Assembly: GCA_947630085.1 (NCBI GenBank)
Contig: CANRGP010000018.1
Location: 1 to 33,713, forward strand
Length of the DNA: 33,713 nucleotides
DNA from: an uncultured Lachnospiraceae bacterium
GTDB lineage: Bacteria > Bacillota > Clostridia > Lachnospirales > Lachnospiraceae
Direction of reading: 5' to 3'
Shown in pieces: positions 26,745 through 27,392 of this stretch. The notes under the pieces were generated by a model. The model was not told the origin of the DNA. It worked only from the letters and a program-made list of their open reading frames with translations, and made no database searches. The position numbers were made by a program, and so were the translations under genes. Numbering within the stretch: the first letter of the stretch is position 1; every line of letters starts with the position of its first letter.

Positions 26745-27113
26745 TCAGTTTTCATATTCAGAGCCGTATGTAGGCAGCTCAAGACTTACCTTCAGAGCGC
26801 AGTCCACCTTTTTCAGCAGATCGTCGTCGATGTGGCAGATCTTTTCCTTCAGCCTCTGTTTATCAATGGTCCGAAGCTGCTCCAAAAGGATCACCGAATC
26901 CTTTACCATATCGCATTTCCGGGTATCCAGCTCCACATGGGTCGGCAGCTTGGCCTTGTTCATCCGCGAAGTGATGGCGGCACAGATCACCGTAGGACTG
27001 TGCCTGTTTCCCACATTGTTCTGTATAATAAGTACCGGCCTGACGCCTCCCTGTTCGGAGCCGATCACCGGCCTGAGGTCCGCATAATAAATGTCTCCCC
27101 GCCTGATAATCAT
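26745..27113 (-). CDS. MazF/PemK-family endoribonuclease toxin (NdoA-like)
   Basis: [62 protein letters not shown]; lies downstream of alr as ndoA does in B. subtilis. Confidence 0.94.
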
Positions 27114-27260
27114 ACATCTCACTCTCCGTCCGTCATATTTCGTTCATGTGACTAGTATTTACTGTTTTTCTTCCACATATTCACAACAGTCCCATGATTA
27201 TAATATGATGCGGACATCAAAAAGTCATGCGGCGGATGCGCGGAGGATGCGCAAAGCGCA

Positions 27261-27290
27261 AAACGGCCGCTCCGTCACAGGGAGCGGCCC
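27261..27290 (-). terminator. Hairpin downstream of alr, candidate terminator
   Basis: GGCCGCTCC-7 nt-GGAGCGGCC followed on the minus strand by GTTTTGCG. Confidence 0.6.
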
Positions 27291-27301
27291 TCCGCCTCAG
27301 G

Positions 27302-27392
27302 CAGAATCTTCACGCAAAATCCTTATGCAAAATCTTCACACAAAGTCTTCACGCAAAATCTCCATGCAAAGTCTTTATGCAAAATCTTCATA
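27302..27392. repeat. 13-bp tandem repeat, seven degenerate copies, overlapping the alr 3' end
   Basis: cagaatcttcacg / caaaatccttatg / caaaatcttcaca / caaagtcttcacg / caaaatctccatg / caaagtctttatg / caaaatcttcata. Confidence 0.92.

Follow-up and report, generated by a model that had tools for sequence, protein, structure and literature searches.

The seven-copy tandem repeat that overlaps the end of the alanine racemase gene alr is, very probably, an ordinary minisatellite specific to its lineage, which arose out of the last part of that gene. It was studied in a window of 33,713 nucleotides, the whole stretch of DNA analysed, where it lies between alr and a gene for a mazF/PemK-type endoribonuclease (Table 1). 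It would clearly exemplify the birth of a tandem repeat out of a gene's final codons, with the protein left unchanged because the copies bring stops of their own. No evidence was found for a functional role of the array. The sections below describe the repeat and its origin, the corresponding spacer in other members of the genus, and the alternative explanations.

Table 1. Features in and around the alr-mazF spacer, with spacer arrays of three congeners
Feature	Position	Strand	Basis and remarks
alr, alanine racemase, 393 aa	27375..28556	-	ORF and Pfam; C-terminus ...DPYEDFA-TAA
Seven-copy 13-bp tandem array	27300..27390	-	Consensus TGAAGATTTTGCA; unit 1 coding, unit 2 starts with the stop, remainder 3' UTR
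GC-rich 9-bp hairpin and weak T-tract	27265..27289	-	Sequence; fold of 27250-27305
Promoter-like blocks before mazF	27153..27212	-	mazF upstream alignment, 29 genomes
mazF/PemK-type endoribonuclease gene	26745..27113	-	Pfam PemK_toxin 3e-36
G001 spacer array, 22-bp unit			Start overlaps the alr stop codon
G013 spacer array, 12/23-bp unit
G009 spacer array, 45-bp unit

Extent and statistics of the array

Read on the minus strand from 27390 to 27300 (91 bp), the array consists of seven imperfect 13-bp units placed head to tail: TGAAGATTTTGCA, TAAAGACTTTGCA, TGGAGATTTTGCG, TGAAGACTTTGTG, TGAAGATTTTGCA, TAAGGATTTTGCG and TGAAGATTCTGCC, the first and fifth being identical. All seven units of the original prediction were found letter for letter, and the array is present where it had been placed, although the coordinates then given (27302-27392) are about 2 bases off. 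The units differ from the consensus at 12 places, comprising 11 transitions and one transversion, and divergence between most copies is 15-30%, with all seven still recognisable. Tandem Repeats Finder (TRF) reported the array both with a period of 13 (7.3 copies, 76% matches, score 106) and with a period of 26 (score 124). When the whole window was shuffled 200 times in a dinucleotide-preserving manner, the top score of each shuffle had a median of 40, a 95th percentile of 54 and a maximum of 64, so the array is not a product of chance, and it has the head-to-tail copies beyond chance expectation that characterise a minisatellite, or tandem repeat locus.

Tandem repeats are common both in this genome and in its genus, as indicated by the number of arrays with a TRF score of at least 60, which was 16 in 354 kb sampled from the genome itself and 41 in 341 kb from its relatives. 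Separate rates for coding and noncoding DNA were set aside because ORFs were called mechanically, so that spurious antisense ORFs, which cover GC-rich repeats as well as the present array, are scored as coding. At the far end of the sequence, the contig (which is the whole window) starts inside a 33-bp tandem repeat at positions 1-80 (2.4 copies, score 153), a likely assembly break.

Origin from the coding end of alr

The alr product matches the Pfam families Ala_racemase_N (6e-68) and Ala_racemase_C (3e-50), the match stopping at residue 372, and the terminal YEDFA lies beyond it. Unit 1 of the array encodes this (Y)EDFA terminus, and unit 2 opens with the TAA stop codon (27377-27375). Among 25 congeners with the alr-mazF gene order, most protein tails are YEDF or a near variant, often with the codons TAT-GAR-GAT-TTT, and in several of them alr ends in almost the same codons, for example in G020 (TATGAGGATTTTGTATAA), whose protein is 70% identical. 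The 13-bp array is absent from all 25. With the YEDF codons conserved in members of the genus that have no array, this end of the coding sequence is the ancestral state, and it seeded the array in the present lineage; judged by these sequences, it did so after the species split. Growth from the coding end of alr had been anticipated by the original prediction, as had the position of the array in the 3' UTR ahead of a hairpin, and both are borne out. When two relatives were aligned in search of the empty site, the flank past the array was too diverged to set its right-hand boundary. Elsewhere in the gene, low-complexity insertions of about 20-50 residues occur in the alr of four congeners (L027, L029, L030 and L031), all near residue 122, and the insertion of L031 seems to contain an internal near-duplication.

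A plausible course of events can be proposed. The seed would have been the 13-bp stretch GAA GAT TTT GCA T, i.e., the last alr codons with the initial T of the stop codon, which was presumably duplicated head to tail through replication slippage, after which the copies would have drifted, mostly by transitions. Gain or loss of copies would be tolerated, leaving the alr protein unchanged and altering only the length of the 3' UTR. Most copies present EDFA-like codons followed by TAA or TGA in the alr frame (EDFA-TAA, EDFV-TGA, EDSA-TGA), with the next unit supplying the AA or GA. The array may well be tolerated because most copies carry such codons and then a stop, so that the protein is unaffected, and because the mazF promoter sits further downstream; similarly, a period not divisible by three would be harmless because unit 1 alone is read as alr coding sequence. 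This account of tolerance is drawn from the sequence, and the array is probably neutral. Two points can be listed against a neutral minisatellite. Seven recognisable copies persist despite their divergence, which could hint at retention, and nearly all of the changes (11/12) are transitions.

The alr-mazF spacer in the genus

The order alr-mazF is common to the congeners, and no mazE antitoxin gene was seen between the two genes, either in this genome or in the congeners read. Spacer length in the 25 congeners ranges from 58 to 424 bp, and TRF found tandem arrays unrelated to the present one in three of these spacers (Table 1), as well as arrays immediately upstream of alr in four other congeners (G021, G008, G006 and G012). 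From the genus-wide rate, about 0.6 arrays would be expected in 25 spacers where three were observed (Poisson P 0.02), a modest excess, as weaker constraint on spacers would by itself lead one to expect. The original prediction considered it unusual for a period of 13, not a multiple of three, to grow from coding sequence, a view weakened by the 22-bp array that lies over the alr stop in G001.

Possible effects on alr and mazF expression

Among the alternatives, the least improbable, though still unlikely, is that the array is a slippage VNTR that tunes the expression of alr or mazF through the length or structure of the 3' UTR. The position between the two genes would suit such a role, as would a predicted property of the array RNA, which can fold into a long, wobble-rich hairpin of 23 pairs. 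Compared with dinucleotide shuffles this fold has a z of -2.9, which looked suggestive of a selected RNA hairpin, but the signal disappeared under controls that are themselves arrays, and that candidate was rejected. A perfect consensus array folds better than the actual one (-24.6 against -23.5 kcal/mol), and the share of controls reaching a minimum free energy at least as good as that of the actual array was 26% for unit-order permutations, 12% for column permutations, 24% for arrays mutated at random with the same kind of substitution, and 47% for arrays built from shuffled units. The hairpin comes from a unit that is partly self-complementary, and the permuted, mutated and shuffled-unit controls gave no sign that selection has arranged the copies for pairing. 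A search of Rfam returned no match in the region; its only score, snoRNA-like, fell far short of the threshold. What was found, then, does not have the character of a structured regulatory RNA, the fold being no stronger than in controls, conserved in no congener and matched by no Rfam family.

The comparison across the genus also speaks against tuning, as congeners with the same gene order do without the array over the whole range of spacer lengths given above. Furthermore, a conserved mazF promoter block, TGAATA-N18-AATACTA (27183-27153, minus strand), is found in nearly all of the 29 aligned genomes; it lies more than 90 bp past the array, downstream of both array and hairpin, and is untouched by the array. 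A second promoter-like block, CATATTATAATCATGG, is conserved in part of the genus. The 3' UTR-tuning role put forward in the original prediction thus finds no support, with sister species carrying unrelated arrays or none at this place and a fold no better than controls. A related idea, that copy number varies between strains and alters how stable alr mRNA is or how far transcription reads through into mazF, is very improbable; were it true, strain-varying copy number would link the supply of cell-wall precursors to an endoribonuclease through slippage.

The GC-rich hairpin that follows the array reads GGCCGCTCC-CTGTGAC-GGAGCGGCC at 27289-27265 and is succeeded by the weak T-tract GTTTTGCG. 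From its sequence it is possibly a weak alr terminator. This hairpin and T-tract were not listed by the terminator scan, and no equivalent hairpin was seen at the corresponding place in the congener spacers read by eye. As for the conserved block ahead of mazF, its sequence appears to resemble a sporulation-type promoter more than a sigma-A promoter, and its spacing is about 2 bases off that of the TGTATT...CATAATA element found ahead of SASP genes in the same genus. SASP genes are present in the genome itself, as is a sigma-G-like gene scoring below the family cut-off. In C. difficile, alr2 and mazEF belong to the sigma-E regulon (PMC3789822).

Occurrence of the unit elsewhere

Seven similar sites at regular spacing could also be bound repeatedly by an sRNA or an RNA-binding protein that recognises GAAGAUUUUGC. 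However, the rest of the genome has only three copies of the consensus unit with at most one mismatch, all of them isolated, none of the 25 congeners searched keeps the unit in tandem even with up to three mismatches allowed, and the lack of an Rfam match applies here too, making such binding highly unlikely. In a family sample of 299 genomes the tandem unit was absent apart from the genome itself, the other matches being isolated single 25-base matches with two or three mismatches. A wider scan of genome_contigs (about 85,000 genomes, where near-identical genomes may be left out) with two exact degenerate patterns gave no match to the first, and to the second two isolated two-unit matches in Lentimicrobium and Shewanella, which are unrelated bacteria and presumably represent chance. 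None was found in viral contigs or in a phage collection, and literature searches on repeats of this sort, in Lachnospiraceae or next to alanine racemase, turned up nothing relevant. The search for the unit elsewhere that the original prediction proposed therefore shows no further tandem occurrence in the genus or in the part of the family sampled, and its suggestion of a repeated protein or sRNA binding site is unsupported.

Dispersed tandem repeat elements do exist in bacterial genomes (PMC2884548), but it is just as improbable that the array belongs to a dispersed or mobile family and came to land behind alr. This reading was rejected on all of these searches, which covered the genome itself, its genus, the family sample, genome_contigs and the viral and phage collections, since unit 1 is accounted for by the ancestral alr tail and no second tandem locus appears in the genus or in the genome, whose assembly is 79% complete. 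Such families, of the MIRU or palindromic-unit kind, place one unit at several loci per genome, whereas in this 79% complete assembly the tandem copies are at a single locus.

Comparison with known systems

A minisatellite that grew out of alr could provide a typing marker for the species if strains vary, and would otherwise be ordinary. Its closest likeness is to the bacterial minisatellites, or VNTR loci, used in MLVA typing, with which it shares short, imperfect head-to-tail copies in or beside genes, lineage specificity and a plausible manufacture by slippage. The copies at MLVA loci are near-identical, however, while those of the present array are about 70-100% alike and known from one genome. 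The MIRU elements of Mycobacterium are tandem repeats at gene ends that touch stop codons in operon-like gene pairs, and they form a dispersed family with longer units and many loci. The present array resembles them in lying at a gene end and touching a stop codon inside an operon-like gene pair, but differs in that its unit is found at one locus.
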